Shown: piece by piece, positions 31,796 through 45,615 of the stretch
How the letters are laid out: every line of letters begins with the position of its first letter
Position numbering within the stretch: position 1 is the first letter of the stretch
Virus record (IMG/VR): IMGVR_UViG_3300010354_000152
Coordinates: 1 to 45,615 of that record
From: a virus
Length of the DNA stretch: 45,615 nucleotides
Reading direction: 5' to 3' (one strand)
Notes under the pieces: generated by a model
The model's input: the letters and a program-made list of their open reading frames with translations, nothing else
What the model was told of the DNA's origin: nothing
Database searches by the model: none
Position numbers and translations under genes: made by a program

Positions 31796-32971
31796 TTATT
31801 TTACAGCCATTTTAACTACAGCAGGATTCATCATCAACTTAGCCCATTTAGTCTTATTACCATTTACAATCTCCTTGATAATAAAATACTTAAGGTCATC
31901 TGTGAATACATCACATCCTGTAGTAAGTTTAATTACTCTATTTATCATTTGATCACTAACTGCTTTTGTCTCAGAATAAACAAGACAATAGTTAATCATC
32001 CTAGTTGCAATCACACTAGAGATATCTGCTCTAAAGTTACCTCCTTGATTTACAGAAGAGTTAAGAGCTCCTACCACATATGCTTCATTAGGATTTGTCA
32101 TCATATCTTCAGGAGATATAATCTTATCCAAGTTGTTATTAATGAACATAGTAAATAGGCTTGATGTCTCTGAACCTACAGAACCTTCACCAATCATTTG
32201 AACTAATGGAAGCTCATCTTCAAACTTATCTATAGAACTAATAGAGTTGAAGAATGTAGTAATTGCACGAGGATTAACATTAGAGTTAATAACTTCTGGA
32301 TTCATCAATAGGAAGTTAATACATCTACCATCAATACCAGCAGTCTCTGCCCACTTAGCCCAGACCTTCTCATCAAACTTTACCTCAACAGAAATAAATC
32401 TAGTCTTCTGAGCTATATCCAAACTAGTAACATTATAGTCACCATTATCTGGATTAGTAGTTAATACAATATGCCAGTTCTTAGGAAGCTTCCAAGAGAT
32501 ATACTCTTGTCTATCAATCAATTCCATAGTTGCTTGCATGAATCTTTGATCTGCGCGAGTATAATCATCAAGAATCAAGAAGCCACCCTCACCTTTACCT
32601 TGTATCCACTCAGGAGAAGCATGAGACATTCTACTCTGACCACTAGGTCTAAATCCAGCTTTGACATAAGTCTCAAGTAAAGTTTCTTGAATCCATTTCT
32701 TAGCTCCATCTTTGTTCTCAATCTCAAACTCTTTGAATGGAAAACCAACTAAGTCACCCAATTCTTCTATCTGAGATAAATTTAATTTAATGACAGCCAT
32801 ATTCATCTCCTTTGCAAGTTGCATTAGAGAAGAAGTCTTACCAAGACCAGCTTCACCTTCAATATTTACAGCTACAGGTACTTTACCTTTTGTTTGAATA
32901 TGCTGATTATTCTTCACCATGTGTCCCAAGAAGGACTTTAACTCATCAATGTTTAACTTTACTTGACTCAT
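31796..32971 (-). CDS. MoxR-type AAA+ ATPase
   Basis: 391 residues. Walker A is GEAGLGKTS (G39-K45-T46), Walker B is FLILDDY (D135, D136) and sensor 1 is TTNP (N173). A DIAQKTRF segment after it fits the arginine-finger region of MoxR/RavA-type AAA+ proteins. These ATPases remodel or activate partner proteins and are usually encoded next to a VWA-domain protein. That is exactly the case here: the gene overlaps the metallopeptidase-VWA gene by ATGA. In phages the target of such a pair is unknown. It acts in the cytoplasm, with no membrane segment seen. Family call is secure; the cellular job is inferred. Confidence 0.9.
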   Translation of the reverse strand: MSQVKLNIDELKSFLGHMVKNNQHIQTKGKVPVAVNIEGEAGLGKTSSLMQLAKEMNMAVIKLNLSQIEELGDLVGFPFKEFEIENKDGAKKWIQETLLETYVKAGFRPSGQSRMSHASPEWIQGKGEGGFLILDDYTRADQRFMQATMELIDRQEYISWKLPKNWHIVLTTNPDNGDYNVTSLDIAQKTRFISVEVKFDEKVWAKWAETAGIDGRCINFLLMNPEVINSNVNPRAITTFFNSISSIDKFEDELPLVQMIGEGSVGSETSSLFTMFINNNLDKIISPEDMMTNPNEAYVVGALNSSVNQGGNFRADISSVIATRMINYCLVYSETKAVSDQMINRVIKLTTGCDVFTDDLKYFIIKEIVNGNKTKWAKLMMNPAVVKMAVK

Positions 32972-34266
32972 AATTCTAATTTTATAACTTTACCTGGTAA
33001 TTCATCATTCATTTCTGATCTTTCAGACAGTACCCATAATACAGGGGACTTAGGTTTTACAGATGTGTGCCATTCACCATCAGTAAAATAAATTAAGCTT
33101 GTGTACTTCTTAAGGTTTTGATTGTAATACTCAAGGACAGGGTCAAACTCAGTTCCACCTCTACCATTTAGTTTTATCTTATTCTTACCATTATAAGGCT
33201 CTATAGATCTGATAGTTGTATCACATTGTATAATAGTGATATCTACTCCTGTTTTATAAATATGATGTATCTCATTCATAAACTCAAGAACTTCAGCCTC
33301 AGATACAGATGCAGAAGTATCAATACCTAACAACATATGCTGCCTCATCTTTATCTTCAAACCAGGATTCTCAGAATATCTTTTATTCTCTTTTCTCCTA
33401 AGCTTTTTAGTAAAGATCTTTGTACTAACTCCTGTAAATCTTCTTACATAAGCTCTCCAATTAAACTTAGCTTTCTCAATTTGAGCAAGTTCAAGTAGGT
33501 GCTTTTCTACATTACCTGGAACAGAACCTCTTTTCTTAACAGTTTGATCTGCAGCTTCACTAAGAAGTCTATCTAGTTGTTGCTGAACAATCTTCTTCTC
33601 AGCTTCAGATAGATTATCAAAGTCCTCCCATGTACTATGATCAGGCAAACCTTCACCAGAATCCATCTGGTCACAGAGTTGATCATAGTTAGGACATCCT
33701 GAAGTACCATCCTTATCTTTCTTATCCTTGGCCTCTTTAAGCTTATCATAGTAATACCTAGTACCAGCTTTAAGATCAAGATTAAGTTCAGAATAGTCTT
33801 CAATCATAATACCTCTTGGTGGAAGTTTAGACAATTCTACTACAGCTTCTTCTGAAGTTATAGTACCTGCTTCAACCTTATCAGTAATAGACTTCTTAAG
33901 ATTATCATACTGTTCTTTAGTATACTCATCACCAGGAAGATAACCCTTATCAATATATTGATTAATCTCCATGTCCATTGCTATGTTAGCAAGCTTTCTA
34001 TCAGGAAAATTAAAATACATTGATAGATGGAAATTGGAAATATGCAATAACTCATGCTTAAGAATACCAATCCTGTGATTGTCAGACATTCCTTGCCAGA
34101 AGTCTTCATTAATAGTAAGTTGATAGTTAATACCATTCTTACTAACTCCGGCAGTAGGAATCCTGTTATTCCATACTTTATTCAACATGATAAGAAAGAA
34201 CCCATAGAAGGGCTCTTTCCACATCAATTCTTTACTAGCTTTACCTAGTGTATCCTCTTTACTCAT
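32968..34266 (-). CDS. DUF2201-like metallopeptidase and VWA-domain protein
   Basis: 432 residues in two parts. The first has HELLH (H71, E72, H75) after GILK, followed by a NIAMDMEINQYI segment that fits the third-ligand region of the DUF2201/COG3864 putative metallopeptidase domain. The middle is acidic and linker-like. The C-terminal half is a VWA fold with MIDAS residues DTSAS (D316, S318, S320), GGTEFDP (T372, D375) and YFTDGE (D396). It partners with the MoxR-type ATPase encoded next, joined by an ATGA overlap. The pair is known across bacteria and phages as an ATPase plus VWA remodelling system. Whether the HExxH is catalytic cannot be judged from sequence. Confidence 0.88.
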   Translation of the reverse strand: MSKEDTLGKASKELMWKEPFYGFFLIMLNKVWNNRIPTAGVSKNGINYQLTINEDFWQGMSDNHRIGILKHELLHISNFHLSMYFNFPDRKLANIAMDMEINQYIDKGYLPGDEYTKEQYDNLKKSITDKVEAGTITSEEAVVELSKLPPRGIMIEDYSELNLDLKAGTRYYYDKLKEAKDKKDKDGTSGCPNYDQLCDQMDSGEGLPDHSTWEDFDNLSEAEKKIVQQQLDRLLSEAADQTVKKRGSVPGNVEKHLLELAQIEKAKFNWRAYVRRFTGVSTKIFTKKLRRKENKRYSENPGLKIKMRQHMLLGIDTSASVSEAEVLEFMNEIHHIYKTGVDITIIQCDTTIRSIEPYNGKNKIKLNGRGGTEFDPVLEYYNQNLKKYTSLIYFTDGEWHTSVKPKSPVLWVLSERSEMNDELPGKVIKLEL

Positions 34267-39274: not shown

Positions 39275-40288
39275 TTAATTTTTAGTTGATAACCTTCTTT
39301 CTTGTTGCGGAGGTGTTGGCATCTCCACAATCTTCATCTTTTCAAATTCAGCTCTAAAGAAACTTAGTCTAGTATCACCATTCCTACATTTAAGAAAGTG
39401 TAGTACTATAACTCTGTCATCTTCAATCATATACCTATCAGGACCATAGTACCTAATCTTCTGCTTAGCAGGTCTATTGATACCTATAACAGTATCAGCA
39501 TGCTGTAACAGAGCATCAGCCCCAAACAAATCAGATTCAAGTACATAATTACCATACTTACCTTCTTCATTTCTCTCAGGATTGTCTATGTTTCTATTGA
39601 GCTGACTAAGAACTACAAATGAAACAGGAAACATTCTTTTGAGTAATGTAAGAGCTTCACCAAGATTGTTAAGCATATCATGCTTATCTTTCTCATATGG
39701 AGCTTTCTTAAACAACAATGAATGGTCAATAGTAATCAGCACTTTTGTAAAAATCATATTCCCGTCTTGATCATACTTAGCATGTGCAAACATGTAATCC
39801 CTAACAATCTCCTTAAATTCATCTATAGTACAAGGAGTTTCTACTACATCTATTGGATACTGTATTTTTTGCTTTGCATAATCATAACATCTTTGTAAAT
39901 CATCATCACTTAGTTTTCCATCAGCACTACATAAGTACTTATAAGACTTGCCAATTACACTGGAATACTCACGTATTGCAGAAGTTCTAGCTAGCATCTC
40001 AAACTGAAATTGCAGGACTCTAAAATTCTCACCTTGGTTGAGTGGGAAAGATTCCCTTACAATCTGTTCTGCAATTAGTGTTTTACCACTAGCTGGTCTA
40101 CCACCAATAACAGTGAGAGTATTCCACTCTATACCATCTGTAGTAGCATCATTAAACTTTGGCCAAGGAGTTCTTAAACTCTTTATAGAACCACGCATTC
40201 TACCCTGTAGATATTTTAAAGATTCTTGAAATCCTTGTTTTTGGCTAGCCCATTTCCTTTTAGACTTAACCTCACTTTTATTATCCAT
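39275..40288 (-). CDS. DnaB-like replicative helicase (SF4)
   Basis: 337 residues corresponding to the RecA-like C-terminal helicase domain of DnaB, with only a short N-terminal extension. Walker A is GGRPASGKT (62-70). The QFQFEM strand after it is the H1a-like element, LITIDH corresponds to Walker B, VVLSQLNR to the H3 region and a DLFGADALLQHADTV segment to the H4 region. It unwinds DNA ahead of the family B polymerase and would work with the primase encoded downstream. The missing DnaB N-terminal domain is common in phage versions. It follows a small membrane-protein gene by 5 bases. Confidence 0.88.
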   Translation of the reverse strand: MDNKSEVKSKRKWASQKQGFQESLKYLQGRMRGSIKSLRTPWPKFNDATTDGIEWNTLTVIGGRPASGKTLIAEQIVRESFPLNQGENFRVLQFQFEMLARTSAIREYSSVIGKSYKYLCSADGKLSDDDLQRCYDYAKQKIQYPIDVVETPCTIDEFKEIVRDYMFAHAKYDQDGNMIFTKVLITIDHSLLFKKAPYEKDKHDMLNNLGEALTLLKRMFPVSFVVLSQLNRNIDNPERNEEGKYGNYVLESDLFGADALLQHADTVIGINRPAKQKIRYYGPDRYMIEDDRVIVLHFLKCRNGDTRLSFFRAEFEKMKIVEMPTPPQQERRLSTKN

Positions 40289-40293
40289 GAAGT

Positions 40294-40470
40294 CTATTTG
40301 TTTTGTAACTCTTTCTTTACTCCTTGATACATAAAATGTGTCAGAGTAACTATAACCTCTATGAGTAGATACTGCATAAAGTTTATAGGGAGTATAAATT
40401 TATCTACAATAACACAACCAGCTGCAGAGCCAATTATTGCTACTAAGATAAGCTTTAGAGAATTTCTCAT
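40294..40470 (-). CDS. Tiny membrane protein, 58 residues
   Basis: The protein begins MRNSLKLILVAIIGSAAGCVIV and has a second hydrophobic stretch at about 31-49, so two transmembrane helices with a short basic C-terminal tail are likely. It fills the gap between two replication genes: its ATG overlaps the TGA of the gene before (ATGA), and the helicase ATG comes 5 bases after its TAG stop. The coupling makes it real despite its size. It could tether the replisome to the membrane, be a holin-like protein or have a host-takeover role; nothing chooses between these. Confidence 0.75.
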   Translation of the reverse strand: MRNSLKLILVAIIGSAAGCVIVDKFILPINFMQYLLIEVIVTLTHFMYQGVKKELQNK

Positions 40471-41057
40471 ACTACTCTCTCGCTAAAATGTTTTTCCTCA
40501 TAATCATTTCCTCCATTAATATACATATTACAATAATCAGCAAGTTCAGATTCAAATGTTTTCTCAGCAGTGTTTGTTTTACGGATAAAATACTGTGATG
40601 TTCTCATGTATTTGTATCCTTGTCTTTCATAGGTGTCAACATACATTTTAGTAGCTGCAATGATAGTACTCCAATTATAATTATGATGCTCAAAAAACCA
40701 TCTGAAAGCATTCTCAAGATTTTTCTTATCAGCACGCGCATACTTACCACTTGGGAGCTTTAATTTAGGAAAAATTTCTGAATATTCCTCTATCATTTTG
40801 CCAAAATCTTCACCCATTATTTGTGTAGAAGTCTTCTTCTTACTAGTCTTAAAGAACCCATCTACTTCCTTAAGTAGAAACAAGGATTTACCAGTAAGTT
40901 TACCAGTATTCTCATCAATCCATTCTCCTGATAATCTTGCAAATTCTACATTAGATGATATAAGCTTAGGAATAATATTATTCTGCTTACAATGAAGAAA
41001 ATACAGTTGGTTTGGAGTAATGTTATTCTTTATCAGAGTCTCATATATTTCTAACAT
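40467..41057 (-). CDS. Hypothetical protein next to helicase, possible helicase loader
   Basis: 196 residues. The N-terminal half contains a helical region (MLEIYETLIKNNITPNQLYF), and the C-terminal half a helical segment with aromatic residues (FRWFFEHHNYNWSTIIAAT, then YERQGYKYMRTSQYFIRK). Phage replisome organisers and helicase loaders often have this architecture and lie beside the DnaB gene. No P-loop is present, so it is not a DnaC-type ATPase. It starts 2 bases after the UDG stop and overlaps the tiny membrane-protein gene by ATGA. The loader role is inference from position and shape. Confidence 0.72.
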   Translation of the reverse strand: MLEIYETLIKNNITPNQLYFLHCKQNNIIPKLISSNVEFARLSGEWIDENTGKLTGKSLFLLKEVDGFFKTSKKKTSTQIMGEDFGKMIEEYSEIFPKLKLPSGKYARADKKNLENAFRWFFEHHNYNWSTIIAATKMYVDTYERQGYKYMRTSQYFIRKTNTAEKTFESELADYCNMYINGGNDYEEKHFSERVV

Positions 41058-41059
41058 AG

Positions 41060-41773
41060 CTACCAGATTAAATCAAAGTTATACAACTTTTTTACAATAT
41101 CTCTAGCTTCCACAAATACATTCTTGGAATCCCATTGTTCTTGACTATTGTAGCTAGCAGATGCTGGATGCATAACATGAAACTTGTAACAGTTATCATT
41201 AATTGCATCAGCCCATTCTGAAGCTTTCTTACCCATAAATATATAAACCATACCTGGATTATACCATGATAACCAATCTAGAACATAAGCAGTAAATGGT
41301 TGCCAAATAAGATAGTGTTGACCTATTTTACCTACAGAAGTTGTCAAAGCTGTATTTAGCAAGAGTACACCTTGATTAGACCATCTTTTCAAATCAGGAT
41401 CTTGATATGAGGGGAATCCACCATATACAGTTCTTTCTATTTCTTTAAATATATAGTCTAAACTAGGTTGTACTTTACCTGTTTTACTACAGCTAAATGA
41501 AATACCATCAGCAATATCTACTTGTGGGTATGGATCTTGACCTACTATCACAACCTTAAGTTGATCATAGGGACATTCTTCAAATGCTCTAAACCAATCT
41601 TTCATAGGTGGAGTAAATCTCTTACCATCTCTTGACTGTGAAGCTAAAGTAGTTATTATATTCTCAAAGTCTTTACTATATATAAATCCTCTAAGAATTC
41701 TTGCCCAACCAGAGGGTTCTAGTTTAGCTATCATTTTATCTTTTATCTCTTCTATATTCAGTGTGTTAGACAT
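41060..41773 (-). CDS. ung: Uracil-DNA glycosylase, family 1-like
   Basis: 237 residues, matching the usual length. The water-activating motif is GQDPYP (G78 to P83, D80 catalytic), SFS with F93 is the uracil-stacking position, LLLNTALT supplies N140, and HPASAS (H202) is the leucine-loop motif. Family 1 normally reads GQDPYH and HPSPLS, so the two motifs here are altered in the same way that other divergent phage enzymes are. It removes uracil from phage DNA, or might counter uracil-based defence or misincorporation; the loop lacks the usual Leu, so its base-flipping efficiency is uncertain. It is divergent from the lone + strand gene with only 29 bases between the two starts. Confidence 0.87.
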   Translation of the reverse strand: MSNTLNIEEIKDKMIAKLEPSGWARILRGFIYSKDFENIITTLASQSRDGKRFTPPMKDWFRAFEECPYDQLKVVIVGQDPYPQVDIADGISFSCSKTGKVQPSLDYIFKEIERTVYGGFPSYQDPDLKRWSNQGVLLLNTALTTSVGKIGQHYLIWQPFTAYVLDWLSWYNPGMVYIFMGKKASEWADAINDNCYKFHVMHPASASYNSQEQWDSKNVFVEARDIVKKLYNFDLIW

Positions 41774-41802
41774 AAATTTTTATTTTTGTTAAAAAGTGTA
41801 TT
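41774..41802. promoter_or_regulatory. Divergent promoter region between UDG and the + strand gene
   Basis: Only 29 bases separate the two divergent starts, so both promoters must overlap here or lie inside the genes. TATTTTTG (41781-41788) fits the Bacteroidota -7 consensus TAnnTTTG for the + strand gene, whose ATG is at 41803. No clear TTTG -33 box is seen at the expected distance upstream, so the promoter call is weak. Confidence 0.3.
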
Positions 41803-42114
41803 ATGGCAATTAAAGTAAAAGAACTTAAAGATGATGCTCTAATTGATGTTAAAGTCAATAAGAACTATTACATGATGTTAAAGAACTCACTAGCATTTAT
41901 CTTTCAGCATATACCTGGAGGTGATGACAAAACAGAATCTCTAGATAGAATCATGAATGCTAAAGTTGATGAGATGAATCATGCTGAAATAAGTTTTTAT
42001 ACAATTACTTTAATGCTTGCAGAAATTGAAAAGATTGCTAAAGATCAAGAGCTATATGATGAGAAAGAAGTTCTTGAGCCCGGTGATGAAGGTTATGTAG
42101 AACCTACAGAATAA
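41803..42114 (+). CDS. Lone + strand small protein inside the minus-strand block, 103 residues
   Basis: The only + strand gene between 24.8 and 45.6 kb. The protein begins MAIKVKELKDDALIDVKVNKN and is helical and acidic, with a short acidic tail (EPGDEGYVEPTE). I do not recognise a family. It diverges from UDG and converges with the next gene, overlapping it by 11 bases (42104-42114). Codon choice matches the virion block as much as the neighbours. Its opposite orientation suggests different timing, perhaps late expression with the + strand genes, which is inference. Confidence 0.82.
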   Translation: MAIKVKELKDDALIDVKVNKNYYMMLKNSLAFIFQHIPGGDDKTESLDRIMNAKVDEMNHAEISFYTITLMLAEIEKIAKDQELYDEKEVLEPGDEGYVEPTE

Positions 42115-42475
42115 TATTCATTTCTCTCCCCAACTCATTACAGGTCTCAATAGCTGAGCTTATTTCATCAGAACTACAATCAGCAAAGGATTTGTAAAGT
42201 ACTTCATCTTGATCAGTAGTCCACAAACCTGACTTGTCTTTTATAATTATCTTCATTTCATCAAATGAATAACCTAGCTCAGAGGCTAGCATTCTTATAC
42301 ATGCATGCACTTTAGATATCTGAGCATTGTTTGCTTTCTTACCTTTTACAGTTACAAGCATTTCTATCATCTCACCATCTTTAAGACTATCAATAAACAT
42401 TTGATATAAGAGCGCATCTTTCTTATTAGAAAAGCTCATCTTAGTGCCTTTCTTTACCATTAGTCCTGTAAACAT
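42104..42475 (-). CDS. NinB-like or other small phage recombination-type protein, 123 residues
   Basis: The longest frame begins at a TTG at 42511 inside the previous gene; the ATG at 42475 (MFTGLMVKKGTKMSF) lies one base after the preceding TGA and is preferred. The protein has NNAQISKVHACIRMLASEL, a GYSFDEMKIIIKDK helix and an ADCSSDEISSAIETCNELG segment, which recall the helix pattern and Ser/Glu-rich C-terminal part of NinB-type phage proteins that bind ssDNA. That resemblance is weak and from memory. Its 3' end overlaps the convergent + strand gene by 11 bases. Confidence 0.62.
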   Translation of the reverse strand: MFTGLMVKKGTKMSFSNKKDALLYQMFIDSLKDGEMIEMLVTVKGKKANNAQISKVHACIRMLASELGYSFDEMKIIIKDKSGLWTTDQDEVLYKSFADCSSDEISSAIETCNELGREMNIIL

Positions 42476-42476
42476 A

Positions 42477-42731
42477 TCAGTTAGCTTTAGTCCACTTTTT
42501 AAATAGTGCAATGAGAGTTTGTAGATCTTCTAAATCTTTGATAACTATATCAAGATCATAACAGTATACTTTCCAGATACCACCATCTATCTCATCACTT
42601 CCATTAGAGCTAAGAGTTACATGATTATTGAGGTCTAGCTTATAGTAATAGTAATCTGTTTTATCACCACTCTCTTCAGTAGGTACATCAATTCTTTCAA
42701 ACTCTTCTTCTATAATCTCTATTTCTTTCAT
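42477..42731 (-). CDS. Small acidic hypothetical protein, 84 residues
   Basis: The protein begins MKEIEIIEEEFERIDVP, has a run of aromatic residues (DYYYYKLDL) and a beta-then-helix layout ending in LFKKWTKAN. No family was recognised. ATGA coupling to the upstream 76-residue gene and one base to the next ATG place it firmly in the operon. Confidence 0.7.
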   Translation of the reverse strand: MKEIEIIEEEFERIDVPTEESGDKTDYYYYKLDLNNHVTLSSNGSDEIDGGIWKVYCYDLDIVIKDLEDLQTLIALFKKWTKAN

Positions 42732-42958
42732 AGCTCATTTATTTTTTCAATGACATCATCATAGAACTGTCTCATTCTAATACTTCTTCTACCATAGTTT
42801 GTTTGATCATTAGTATAGATATGCTCTTCTCTCAAGAACTCAGCTATACCAACAGCACATGATTTTGAATTCTCATGTGCTGTCTTTGGGTCTATGGTAT
42901 AGAATAATTTGTATGCAAAGTGGTAGAGCTCATCAGCTCTGTCTTCCTCATCTGTCAT
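42728..42958 (-). CDS. Small hypothetical protein, 76 residues
   Basis: A helical, acidic protein beginning MTDEEDRADELYHFAYKLF, with Arg-rich NYGRRSIRMRQFYDD near the end. It overlaps both neighbours by ATGA. No family was recognised, and there is no membrane segment. Confidence 0.7.
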   Translation of the reverse strand: MTDEEDRADELYHFAYKLFYTIDPKTAHENSKSCAVGIAEFLREEHIYTNDQTNYGRRSIRMRQFYDDVIEKINEL

Positions 42959-43398
42959 TTTTTCACAAACTTTTTAATTATATGTACTGGGTATCCAAGT
43001 ATTACATTCATTAACTCAGGAGAAACATTAGGTTTTTTACTGTCATACTCACCATGAGTTTTAATCCTAGATTCTCTAAGTTGCTCAATAGAAAGTAGTG
43101 CCATGTAAATGTTGTCTTGATCCTCAGATGAGAACATAGATCCTAGTGTGTCCCTTTGTTCTTCTGTAACAAGTCCCAAAGATAATAATAAGTTTATTTC
43201 ACAGATTAATATAAAGTCACTTATAGTACCTGCTTTAGCACCATTCATGTAACTCCACCACAAATAATTTGTTGGCTTGTCAGATACAAGAGTCATTTCA
43301 AAATGCTCTTTTACTATCTTCCCTGTAAGTTTACGAAGTTTTTTAAGTATCTCTGCATTAGTTATCCTGGCCAGCAGGCTGTTGTGATGTTTCACCAT
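42955..43398 (-). CDS. Hypothetical protein, 147 residues, start uncertain
   Basis: The longest frame starts at TTG 43419. The first ATG is at 43398 (MVKHHNSLLARITNAE), which still overlaps the upstream gene by 41 bases. No in-frame ATG exists nearer to that gene's stop, so either the long overlap is real or a non-ATG start is used. The protein is mainly helical, with KPTNYLWWSYMNGAKAG and an ISDFILICEINLLLSLGLV hydrophobic helix. No family was recognised. Confidence 0.68.
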   Translation of the reverse strand: MVKHHNSLLARITNAEILKKLRKLTGKIVKEHFEMTLVSDKPTNYLWWSYMNGAKAGTISDFILICEINLLLSLGLVTEEQRDTLGSMFSSEDQDNIYMALLSIEQLRESRIKTHGEYDSKKPNVSPELMNVILGYPVHIIKKFVKK

Positions 43399-43585
43399 CC
43401 CTAGTTTTTTTAGGACCAATAACTAATGCTTCTTGTACAATCTTATCTAAGATTTGAGTGTGTTGAGTAATACTTGTAGCCTCAATGTTCATTTTAGATA
43501 TAGTAGTTAGTATAGCACTCTCTACTTCATTCTCAGGAATAAGTACAATTCTTGTTGTACCATTTAAAATCAAATCTACTTTCAT
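43358..43585 (-). CDS. Small hypothetical protein, 75 residues
   Basis: The protein begins MKVDLILNGTTRIVLIPENE and looks like a small beta-strand pair followed by helix (IQ-type segment ILDKIVQEALVIG) and a polar tail. It is the first gene after the lysin, 59 bases downstream. The 3' end overlaps the following gene by 41 bases. No family was recognised. Confidence 0.68.
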   Translation of the reverse strand: MKVDLILNGTTRIVLIPENEVESAILTTISKMNIEATSITQHTQILDKIVQEALVIGPKKTRDGETSQQPAGQDN

Positions 43586-43644
43586 AGGTTATAATTTAGT
43601 GATTTTCATCATACAAACATGAGACTACTAATATAAAAAGTATC

Positions 43645-44166
43645 TCATTTAAGGTTGTCAGCAATCTTTTTAACTGACACACAATACTTTGGACCTGCTG
43701 CATAACTATCTGCAAGATATGAATAATATTGTTCTTCTGTTTTACACTTAGATAAATAAGTAGCTTGATATAAAGCATAATCAACTATAGATTCTTTCCA
43801 ATTGCTATATACTGCATGACCAAATTGAGTACCTAAGTTATTACTGATACGCAATCTAGCCTCTCTCATACCAAAGAGATTATTATTCTTTTTACAAATC
43901 TTTGATGTGAATGTACCAGACTCTATAATAGCCTGTGCAAGAACAATGTGAGGGAACTTAACATTTAATTCCTTAAGATACTTCATCACATTTTCTTTAT
44001 TCAGTTCCTCTATTTTAGGTTGTACTAACTTATCCTTATATACAGTAACTGTTTCTACTTTTTTAATAACTACTGGTGGTTTTGTTACACTTAAAATTGT
44101 GAATGCTGCAATCATACCACCTACAATAACTACACTTGTTTTAAAACTAATCAGTTGTTTATTCAT
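43645..44166 (-). CDS. Membrane-anchored glucosaminidase-type endolysin
   Basis: The longest frame begins at a TTG at 44199 inside the tRNA; the ATG at 44166 (MNKQLISFK) is chosen, giving 173 residues. A single N-terminal hydrophobic helix at about 11-27 (VVIVGGMIAAFTILSV) has no cleavage-type end and looks like a signal anchor. The catalytic domain matches glucosaminidase (PF01832, GH73-like): LAQAIIESG with E82 as the expected acid, NNNLFGM, then YSNWKESIVDYALYQ. It would cut glycan strands of peptidoglycan. The anchor suggests an SAR-like or membrane-tethered lysin exported by the host Sec system. It is shorter than most family members but keeps the core. Confidence 0.82.
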   Translation of the reverse strand: MNKQLISFKTSVVIVGGMIAAFTILSVTKPPVVIKKVETVTVYKDKLVQPKIEELNKENVMKYLKELNVKFPHIVLAQAIIESGTFTSKICKKNNNLFGMREARLRISNNLGTQFGHAVYSNWKESIVDYALYQATYLSKCKTEEQYYSYLADSYAAGPKYCVSVKKIADNLK

Positions 44167-44190
44167 ATTATTTGATTTTGGGATTAATAG

Positions 44191-44264
44191 TAGTCCCAAT
44201 AGGACTCGAACCTATAACCTACACATTAGAAGTGTGTTGCTCTATCCAATTGAGCTATGGGACT
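44191..44264 (-). tRNA. tRNA-Arg (anticodon UCU)
   Basis: The minus strand folds into a full cloverleaf: acceptor AGTCCCA/TGGGACT, D arm GCTC/GAGC, anticodon stem ACACA/TGTGT with loop CTTCTAA (anticodon TCT), T arm ATAGG/CCTAT with loop TTCGAGT. The discriminator is A and no CCA is encoded. It reads AGA, by far the commonest Arg codon in the genes here. Its first two bases are the last two of the TAG stop of the Myb-like gene. Confidence 0.95.
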
Positions 44265-44589
44265 ATGCTTTGATTTTTATAGTAATGATGGTGTCACCAT
44301 CTTTTGCTACTATAATAGAAGGCTCTGATACTACTATCTCAGCTTCTTTGTCATTAACAAAAATAGTATAATTTTTATTTTGGTGTTCTTTGTTATACTC
44401 ATGATACTTTTGGATGTAATCATTTTCAACATATCTCACCTTGTAATTATACCTACTATGACAGGAATTATAAGTTCTTTGCAATAATGGAGCAGCCTTT
44501 TCACAGGCATCACTTACGTGGTAGCCTTCTTTTAAGAACTTGTCCACTAGATATGCTAACCTTGCTGTTTCTTGCTCTGTCCACCTCAT
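44263..44589 (-). CDS. Myb/SANT-like DNA-binding protein, 108 residues
   Basis: The longest frame begins at a TTG; the ATG at 44589 (MRWTEQETARL) follows an A-rich leader (AAAAAGAAAAAGC) as is usual for this phage. The N-terminal 50 residues match the Myb/SANT-like layout found in RsfA-type regulators: W3 in RWTEQE, three helices, and RTYNSCHSRYNYK as the recognition-helix end. The C-terminal part is beta-rich (YTIFVNDKEAEIVV). It may regulate phage or host promoters. The TAG stop runs into the tRNA 5' end. The family call is moderate. Confidence 0.68.
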   Translation of the reverse strand: MRWTEQETARLAYLVDKFLKEGYHVSDACEKAAPLLQRTYNSCHSRYNYKVRYVENDYIQKYHEYNKEHQNKNYTIFVNDKEAEIVVSEPSIIVAKDGDTIITIKIKA

Positions 44590-44785
44590 GCTTTTTCTTT
44601 TTGCGATTATCAAAATACTCAATTATAAATCCAGTGGCTACAATTATGTTAAGACCAAATGATGTTATAATCTCGTATATATCATGATACACATTTGTAG
44701 TAAGATGCACATGACCTACTACCCAGAAGGGTATGGATAAGTTTTGACTTACCCACACCACCAGGTATTTTAGGAATCTAATCAC
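44510..44785 (-). CDS. Putative small membrane protein, GTG start, holin candidate
   Basis: 91 residues from a GTG that overlaps the upstream TAG stop (GTGATTAG). Two hydrophobic stretches are visible (about 4-27 and 41-57), followed by a strongly basic tail (NRKKKKHEVDRAR and KRRLPRK). This is a holin-like arrangement near the membrane-anchored lysin, which is the only argument for function. It overlaps the Myb-like gene by 80 bases, so the tail may be dual-coded or the frame partly spurious. Confidence 0.5.
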   Translation of the reverse strand: MIRFLKYLVVWVSQNLSIPFWVVGHVHLTTNVYHDIYEIITSFGLNIIVATGFIIEYFDNRKKKKHEVDRARNSKVSISSGQVLKRRLPRK

Positions 44786-45003
44786 CTTCTTCAGGATTTA
44801 TTGGTTTTTGATCAAAATCAGGATATATGTTGTGAAGACCCCTCCTTATTAGATTGGCTTCTCTCATCCATTTCCTTCCTATCTGAGAGTATCTTTTGTC
44901 TCTCAGCTTGTTCAAGATCTCTCTCTTGTCTCCACTGTTCAAAGCTGAAATTCTCAGGTATTTCTCCATATTTATTCATTAGATCTATATAAATCTCCTT
45001 CAT
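44778..45003 (-). CDS. Small protein apparently split by a frameshift
   Basis: Two frames overlap here. One runs from ATG 45003 (MKEIYIDLMNKYGEIPENF) to TGA 44818. The other runs from ATG 44969 to TAG 44778 and ends in HNIYPDFDQKPINPEEGD. Codon use is phage-like in the first frame up to about 44840 and phage-like in the second frame from there on. Removing one base in the CCCC run (44839-44842 on +, GGGG in the gene) would join them into one protein of about 74 residues. This may be a real frameshift, an assembly or sequencing error, or two true overlapping genes. ATG 44979 (ATGAATAA overlap) is another possible start. Confidence 0.5.
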
Positions 45004-45319
45004 TCTTCCCATTCTCTAGGCTTTTTAAAATTAATAATTCTTCTCCAGATAAATCTTCAATCTTGTAATCAGGCATTTCAGAAGGATATTCACCTTCATG
45101 ATAAGGCTCATTCTTGTGCCCAAAGTACACAGGTCTATCAGATTCATTGTGTGAGTACATTACATAAAGAACCTTAGCAACCTCTTCAGGAAGAGGATAT
45201 ACCTCAATAAATTCATTATAAGTTATACCACTCTTTATGAATGTCCTAATAGGTACTAAGGATTTTTTATTGCGTGTAAGGTATCTTAGAGCATTAAGAA
45301 TTTGCCCATGACTATACAT
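44972..45319 (-). CDS. Hypothetical protein, 115 residues
   Basis: The protein begins MYSHGQILNALRYLTRNKKS and has a basic helical start, an acidic C-terminal half with EYPSEMPDYKIEDLSGEEL, and no recognisable motif. It begins 19 bases after the stop of the ClpS-like gene, so it is probably co-transcribed with it. Its stop overlaps or abuts the possible starts of the next small gene. Confidence 0.7.
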   Translation of the reverse strand: MYSHGQILNALRYLTRNKKSLVPIRTFIKSGITYNEFIEVYPLPEEVAKVLYVMYSHNESDRPVYFGHKNEPYHEGEYPSEMPDYKIEDLSGEELLILKSLENGKNEGDLYRSNE

Positions 45320-45338
45320 AAACTAATAATGTTTAAAC

Positions 45339-45590
45339 TTAGAATTCTAAACTTAGATTCTCTATCTCTACAAGGAGACCTTTATCTGATAACTCATTCT
45401 GCATTTCATACATGTCAATAAAGTTACCTGACTTTATTTCACACTTACCTACATTGTGAGTAATTACAGCACATTGCTCAGCTTGCTCCTTTGTATGATC
45501 ACAATAAAGGATCAAACATCTGATTACATGCTGATAAGTATTATCAGAATCATTAATCAGAATAAGTGAATGTGTTTTTTCCAAAACCAT
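45339..45590 (-). CDS. clpS: ClpS-like adaptor protein
   Basis: 83 residues, nearly the size of the ClpS core. The pattern HSLILINDSDNTYQHVI, then DHTKEQAEQCAVITHNVGKC, fits ClpS: ND at 13-14 and T18 fall where the N-degron pocket residues sit, and H45 is at the position of the conserved pocket His. The QAEQCA and GKC elements are especially like Bacteroidota ClpS. The host protein binds proteins with destabilising N-terminal residues and hands them to ClpAP/ClpCP. The phage copy could redirect or block host proteolysis. It is the first gene of the visible operon; upstream sequence is cut by the window end. Confidence 0.83.
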   Translation of the reverse strand: MVLEKTHSLILINDSDNTYQHVIRCLILYCDHTKEQAEQCAVITHNVGKCEIKSGNFIDMYEMQNELSDKGLLVEIENLSLEF

Positions 45591-45615
45591 CTTGTTTAAT
45601 TTAAATTACAAAAAA

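Follow-up and report, generated by a model that had tools for sequence, protein, structure and literature searches.

The window analysed here is a 45.6-kb IMG/VR fragment (all 45,615 nucleotides of record IMGVR_UViG_3300010354_000152), in which one strand carries the genes of giant virion proteins and the opposite strand a replication block (Table 1). Within the replication block lies an open reading frame for a protein of 83 residues (MVLEKTHSLILINDSDNTYQHVIRCLILYCDHTKEQAEQCAVITHNVGKCEIKSGNFIDMYEMQNELSDKGLLVEIENLSLEF). Its position had been given exactly, without a strand, by a first-pass annotation of the DNA; it was found on the minus strand.

Table 1. Coordinates of the ClpS gene, its key residues and neighbouring features in the window
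Feature	Position	Strand	Remarks
ClpS-core CDS	45339..45590	minus	83 aa; ATG 45590-45588, stop 45341-45339
In-frame TAA upstream of the ATG	45606..45608	minus	five sense codons between; from the sequence; same in L002 and L004
N13-D14	45549..45554	minus	equivalent of E. coli ClpS N34-D35, which binds the N-degron alpha-amino group; by alignment
H45	45456..45458	minus	equivalent of E. coli H66; by alignment
C-terminal tail, residues 79-83 (LSLEF)	45342..45356	minus	past the end of Bacteroidota ClpS; by alignment; low pLDDT
Replication-module block holding ClpS	39275..45590	minus	with small genes
DnaB-like helicase	39275-40288	minus	replication block
UDG	41060-41773	minus	replication block
tRNA-Arg (TCT)	44190-44264	minus	between the endolysin and small genes downstream of ClpS
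Glucosaminidase-type endolysin	43645-44199	minus	N-terminal hydrophobic segment
AAA+ ATPase (phrog_1297) and VWA/putative metallopeptidase (DUF2201, PF09967/PF13203)	31796-34266	minus	MoxR-VWA-like pair in the phage replication block

The protein matched the Pfam-A family ClpS (PF02617) with an E-value of 5e-11 and 42.7 bits, above the curated cut-off of 23 bits, and five further members of its clade scored 41-55 bits. When the single window protein was searched against the PDB sequences with phmmer no match was obtained, whereas the profile search did match; a search of PHROGs returned no matching family. ClpS was kept in three relatives from other metagenomes at 89-92% identity, and the dN/dS of the gene was 0.014-0.06 (0.05-0.06 against two relatives), indicating purifying selection. 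Given these relatives, the low dN/dS and the predicted ClpS fold, the reading frame did not arise by chance. The ORF at 45590-45339 is a genuine, selected ClpS-core gene of a crAss-like phage.

The AF2 model of the window protein had a pLDDT of 90, with low values at the C-terminal tail. Foldseek returned 38 PDB matches with E < 0.001, all of them ClpS chains or ClpS-domain proteins; two rows named 'malarial protein' are the ClpS of 4o2x. Superposition with VIA-align gave Z-scores of 13.3-15.4 for ClpS, whereas none for L7/L12 exceeded 10.1, and residue 1 of the model paired with residue 23 of E. coli ClpS.

The closest likeness is to the ClpS of Bacteroidota (PF02617), with which the protein shares the fold, the ND..NTF/Y..V motif, the QAEQCA..H..GKC elements and 42-53% identity; QAEQCA and GKC had been rightly recognised as the Bacteroidota form. 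In contrast to these host proteins, it is phage-encoded, has no N-terminal extension (NTE), carries Glu for Pro in helix 3 (P62 to E) and ends in an extra C-terminal tail. Compared with E. coli ClpS, the adaptor of ClpAP, the fold (Z 14-15) and the equivalents of N34, D35, H66 and L99 are common to both, the last being L72 in the window, whereas residues 1-22, which are threaded into the ClpA pore, are missing, the T38 position is Asn and helix 3 is shorter. This shorter helix 3 is found in the whole Bacteroidota-type group, host and phage, and neither the hosts nor the phages have an equivalent of E. coli K84, so that the Clp N-domain face of E. coli (E79, E82, K84) cannot be equated here.

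The Asn-Asp, Thr and His positions of the N-degron pocket had all been described as kept. This held for N13-D14 and H45 but not for the threonine: T18 aligns with E. coli P39, and the T38 position is taken by N17. By alignment, the window ClpS carries the ancestral Asn at the T38 position and the ancestral His at the H66 position. Among the 64 distinct proteins of its clade, the N34 equivalent was Asn in all and the D35 equivalent Asp in 63. The H66 position was His in 43 and Asp in 19 (Bacteroidota: His in 75/77), and the T38 position held Asn (33 proteins), His (23) or Leu (8), compared with Asn in 77/77 for Bacteroidota. The pocket is thus preserved in the window and its close relatives, but in part of the wider clade N-degron binding may differ, owing to the exchange of H66 for Asp and of the Asn at T38 for His or Leu. 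The clade also has a T-H-K signature at its start and a tail of about 7 residues ending like ESNMH/Y, which Bacteroidota ClpS do not have (a median of 12 residues after the L99 column vs 5); the tail of the window protein reads ENLSLEF.

The absence of the NTE had been missed in the first-pass annotation. The first Met of the window ClpS lies 12 residues before Asn-Asp and about 5 residues ahead of the first strand, and the disordered NTE of about 20-25 residues, which enters the unfoldase pore, is absent. Because an in-frame TAA stands just upstream of the ATG, no such extension can be encoded there. The same was observed at 115 loci with 64 distinct proteins, in which Met and ND are separated by 11-13 residues where an ATG was found. 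Alternative upstream starts were ruled out at 93 of the 115 loci by in-frame stops within 20 codons of ND; at L184, L185 and L222 the start position is ambiguous. In Bacteroidota ClpS, at least 24 residues separated Met from ND in 80/80 proteins; for the other phage ClpS the distance was 25 or more with few exceptions. More distant crAss-like ClpS mostly had 24-45 residues, with one pair (L261/L262) having an ATG at 22. Since the NTE was tested for and is absent, we class the protein as a member of the ClpS-domain family and not as a canonical ClpS delivery adaptor. The proposal of a ClpS-like adaptor is borne out for fold and family, while the missing NTE argues against canonical delivery.

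The origin of the window was assessed with the L004 contig of 114,090 bases from another metagenome, which shows synteny over the full length of the window (80-91% DNA identity) and extends past both of its ends. This 114-kb relative has the terminase and portal of crAss-like families. In the relative G001, TerL belongs to phrog_6681 and the portal to phrog_6547, and most of the matches listed for this TerL were Crassvirales at 23-26% identity; similar scores were obtained for Flavobacterium Fpv phages, in whose taxonomy line the order is missing. A TerL of this type was common to 20 of the 26 contigs checked. Judged by gene content and synteny, the window derives from a crAss-like phage (Crassvirales) and covers part of its genome. 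In the 114-kb relative, an SNF2-type helicase gene lies upstream of ClpS at a distance of 36 nt. One of the relatives of this helicase is phi14:2 g056; since the window ends 25 nt before the ClpS start codon, the helicase lies outside it. The SNF2-type helicase is labelled 'putative HKD family nuclease' in the gut crAss-like records cr106_1, cr112_1 and cr85_1. A profile search detected no ClpS in the fetched stretches of phi14:2, Fpv20, DAC17, Kolpuevirus, cr106_1 and cr1_1 (best E 0.08), and tblastn of INPHARED with three different queries gave no crAss-like ClpS carrier, so no cultured crAss-like carrier was found.

Two helicase-anchored scans, each restricted to the best 80 of more than 500 matches and hence a sample, gave together with the earlier loci 165 loci, of which 156 had ClpS. 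As some contigs were counted twice, distinct proteins are a better count than loci. Two of the nine loci without ClpS had only 2-3 kb of downstream sequence. In this sample ClpS is a near-constant companion of the SNF2-type helicase, usually at 0-35 nt and sometimes at 0.5-6 kb. In the helicase tree, which is built from an independent gene so that no N-terminal ClpS columns had to be removed, the NTE-minus genomes were on one side of a single branch (SH-aLRT 95) and all NTE-bearing genomes on the other; one fragment with no ClpS in its short flank fell among the NTE-minus genomes. In the ClpS tree, of only 80 columns, the sampled NTE-minus proteins including the window formed one clade in 200/200 bootstrap trees (branch support 87/97). 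Identity among the NTE-minus proteins falls as low as 33%. The simplest history is that the NTE was apparently lost once, followed by diversification without regain. A single acquisition of ClpS by all crAss-like phages was unsupported, as the NTE-bearing ones are scattered in the 80-column ClpS tree. In a near-identical relative (L005:4336-4443), about 47 codons of ClpS are deleted in frame, which joins NDSDNTY to LSDKGLL; this is either a real variant or an assembly error.

In E. coli, the ClpS core docks on the N-domain of ClpA and binds N-degrons, and ClpA pulls on ClpS via the NTE and takes over the substrate. The NTE comprises residues 1-25 ahead of the folded core and was seen by cryo-EM threaded in the ClpA pore; when it was kept out of the pore, ClpS-assisted degradation was inhibited (PMC9663308). 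E. coli ClpS without its NTE was stabilised in vivo and no longer degraded by ClpAP (PMC12974527). The role of the NTE is also treated in PMC12493166. The probable hosts of the phages studied here are Bacteroidota. Clp_N unfoldases and ClpP occur in six of six Bacteroidota genomes that have ClpS, together with the Leu/Phe-transferase in five; none of these three was found in the four phage records checked.

The lack of the NTE, taken with the mechanism known from E. coli, would mean binding without hand-over, which favours a decoy or competitor over delivery. We give about an even chance to the reading that the phage protein is an N-recognin core which binds N-degrons and/or host ClpC, cannot deliver, and acts as a decoy or competitor. 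Without an NTE, the core would still occupy N-degrons and/or the N-domain of host ClpC or ClpA but would fail to complete the hand-over of the substrate. The protein would then be a stable decoy in competition with host ClpS, which would be suited by the finding that removal of the NTE halts ClpS degradation by ClpAP in E. coli. N-degron proteolysis would be slowed, and phage or host proteins might be spared in the course of infection. It had been left open whether a phage copy would steer the host protease or compete for it; the missing NTE argues against canonical delivery and for competition. More tentatively, loss of the pore-threading arm and gain of the conserved C-terminal tail may have converted the host N-degron adaptor, in this clade, into a protein dedicated to inhibiting or re-routing Clp proteolysis. 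Against a decoy stands that the need for the NTE is established for the ClpA of Proteobacteria, a different unfoldase from the ClpC of Bacteroidota. In addition, N-degron binding may differ in part of the clade, and the conserved tail suggests a gained function or partner, which would be superfluous for a simple decoy.

A working delivery adaptor, which would bring host proteins (e.g. defence proteins) or phage proteins to host ClpCP or ClpAP, is unlikely for the window clade. The core and the Asn-Asp site are kept, ClpC and ClpP are present in the hosts and the same role was proposed for jumbo-phage ClpS (PMC7824862), but the clade lacks the very arm whose exclusion from the pore inhibits ClpS-assisted degradation in E. 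coli (PMC9663308), and an NTE-length N-terminus is kept in every Bacteroidota ClpS examined. The 630-kb phages described below and the crAss-like relatives further away have N-termini of NTE length, so that delivery is plausible for them.

It is rather improbable that the protein is a repurposed peptide-binding domain that acts independently of Clp on phage proteins, such as the product of the adjoining helicase gene. The closeness of the two genes in most genomes agrees with such a partner, as do the clade-specific P62 to E exchange, T-H-K start and ES..H/Y tail and the replacement of His66 by Asp in 19/64 proteins. Yet the wider gap of several genomes speaks against strict coupling with the helicase, and the Asn-Asp that binds the alpha-amino group is nearly invariant.

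The C-terminal domain of the ribosomal stalk protein L7/L12 is built on the same topology, but mimicry of it is disfavoured as very improbable. These domains came second among the folds (Z about 10), and bL12 is the annotation of some gut crAss-like proteins with such a fold, but the sequence profiles yielded ClpS alone, the Z-scores were clearly higher for ClpS structures (13-15) and the N-degron site is conserved. In BFVD, cr1_1, cr10_1, cr126_1 and cr50_1 have proteins with a ClpS/L12-like fold, annotated as bL12 C-terminal domain or unknown; a phage-ClpS profile gave no match in the fetched stretches of cr1_1. A truncated or contaminating host gene at the contig end, as the 25-nt distance from the window end might suggest, is refuted by the presence of this gene, with an identical start, both within the syntenic 114-kb phage contig and on contigs from other metagenomes, by the in-frame stop upstream and by the dN/dS of 0.05.

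ClpS had been regarded as foreign to the usual phage gene list. It has in fact been reported in jumbo phages, among them Atu_ph07 gp708 (PMC6102473), and a survey of jumbo phages mentions ClpS in 'several other phages' and proposes that it brings targets to host ClpAP (PMC7824862). Neither ClpS together with crAss-like phages nor a natural ClpS without an NTE was found in the open-licence papers examined, and ClpS is absent from the main text of PMC7162821, a paper on huge phages. Phage ClpS itself is known; new is a crAss-like clade of 64 distinct proteins whose ClpS starts at the folded core. This large clade, in which the substrate-binding core is kept and the arm permanently lost, is a natural experiment on the core alone. 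It suggests that Bacteroidota phages perhaps manipulate N-degron proteolysis in their hosts, a pathway of which the role and natural substrates are poorly known in this phylum.

Phage inhibitors of host proteases are exemplified by T4 PinA, which acts against Lon, and lambda CIII, which acts against FtsH. If the decoy reading holds, these unrelated proteins would be functional parallels, but here a shortened version of the host adaptor itself would be the inhibitor.

The ClpS of the jumbo phages PA5oct, Atu_ph07 (gp708), GAP32 and Phosso belong to the same family and are likewise phage-encoded, but these phages infect Proteobacteria and have genomes of 280-490 kb, with no NTE loss reported in the literature examined. 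They are too divergent to be detected by tblastn with the window protein. E. coli ClpS, used as a probe only, matched 22 INPHARED records, with several annotated jumbo phages among them. The uncultured 634-642-kb phages LR756502, LR745206 and LR756504 have a Bacteroidota-type ClpS of 39-44% identity which, unlike that of the window, has an N-terminus of NTE length (26-29 aa before ND); in the flanks of their ClpS no other gene matched the window's relatives.

A second large phage ClpS family of about 60 loci (L010, L013-L026 and others) has a near-constant NTE, 'MATITKKKTQSK..EILSKPY'. Its carriers are phages with sizes of up to 130-195 kb, which have no further gene in common with the relatives of the window, and at L032:7956-8234 its gene adjoins a terminase gene. 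A crAss-like subgroup (L268-L284) has a divergent ClpS (EDSKLVLYNDDHNSFDKVIMALMIYC..AAEIAMKVHNEGKAVAKY) with a long N-terminus, in which the QCA element is lost; it is still recognised as ClpS by Pfam (E 4e-15).
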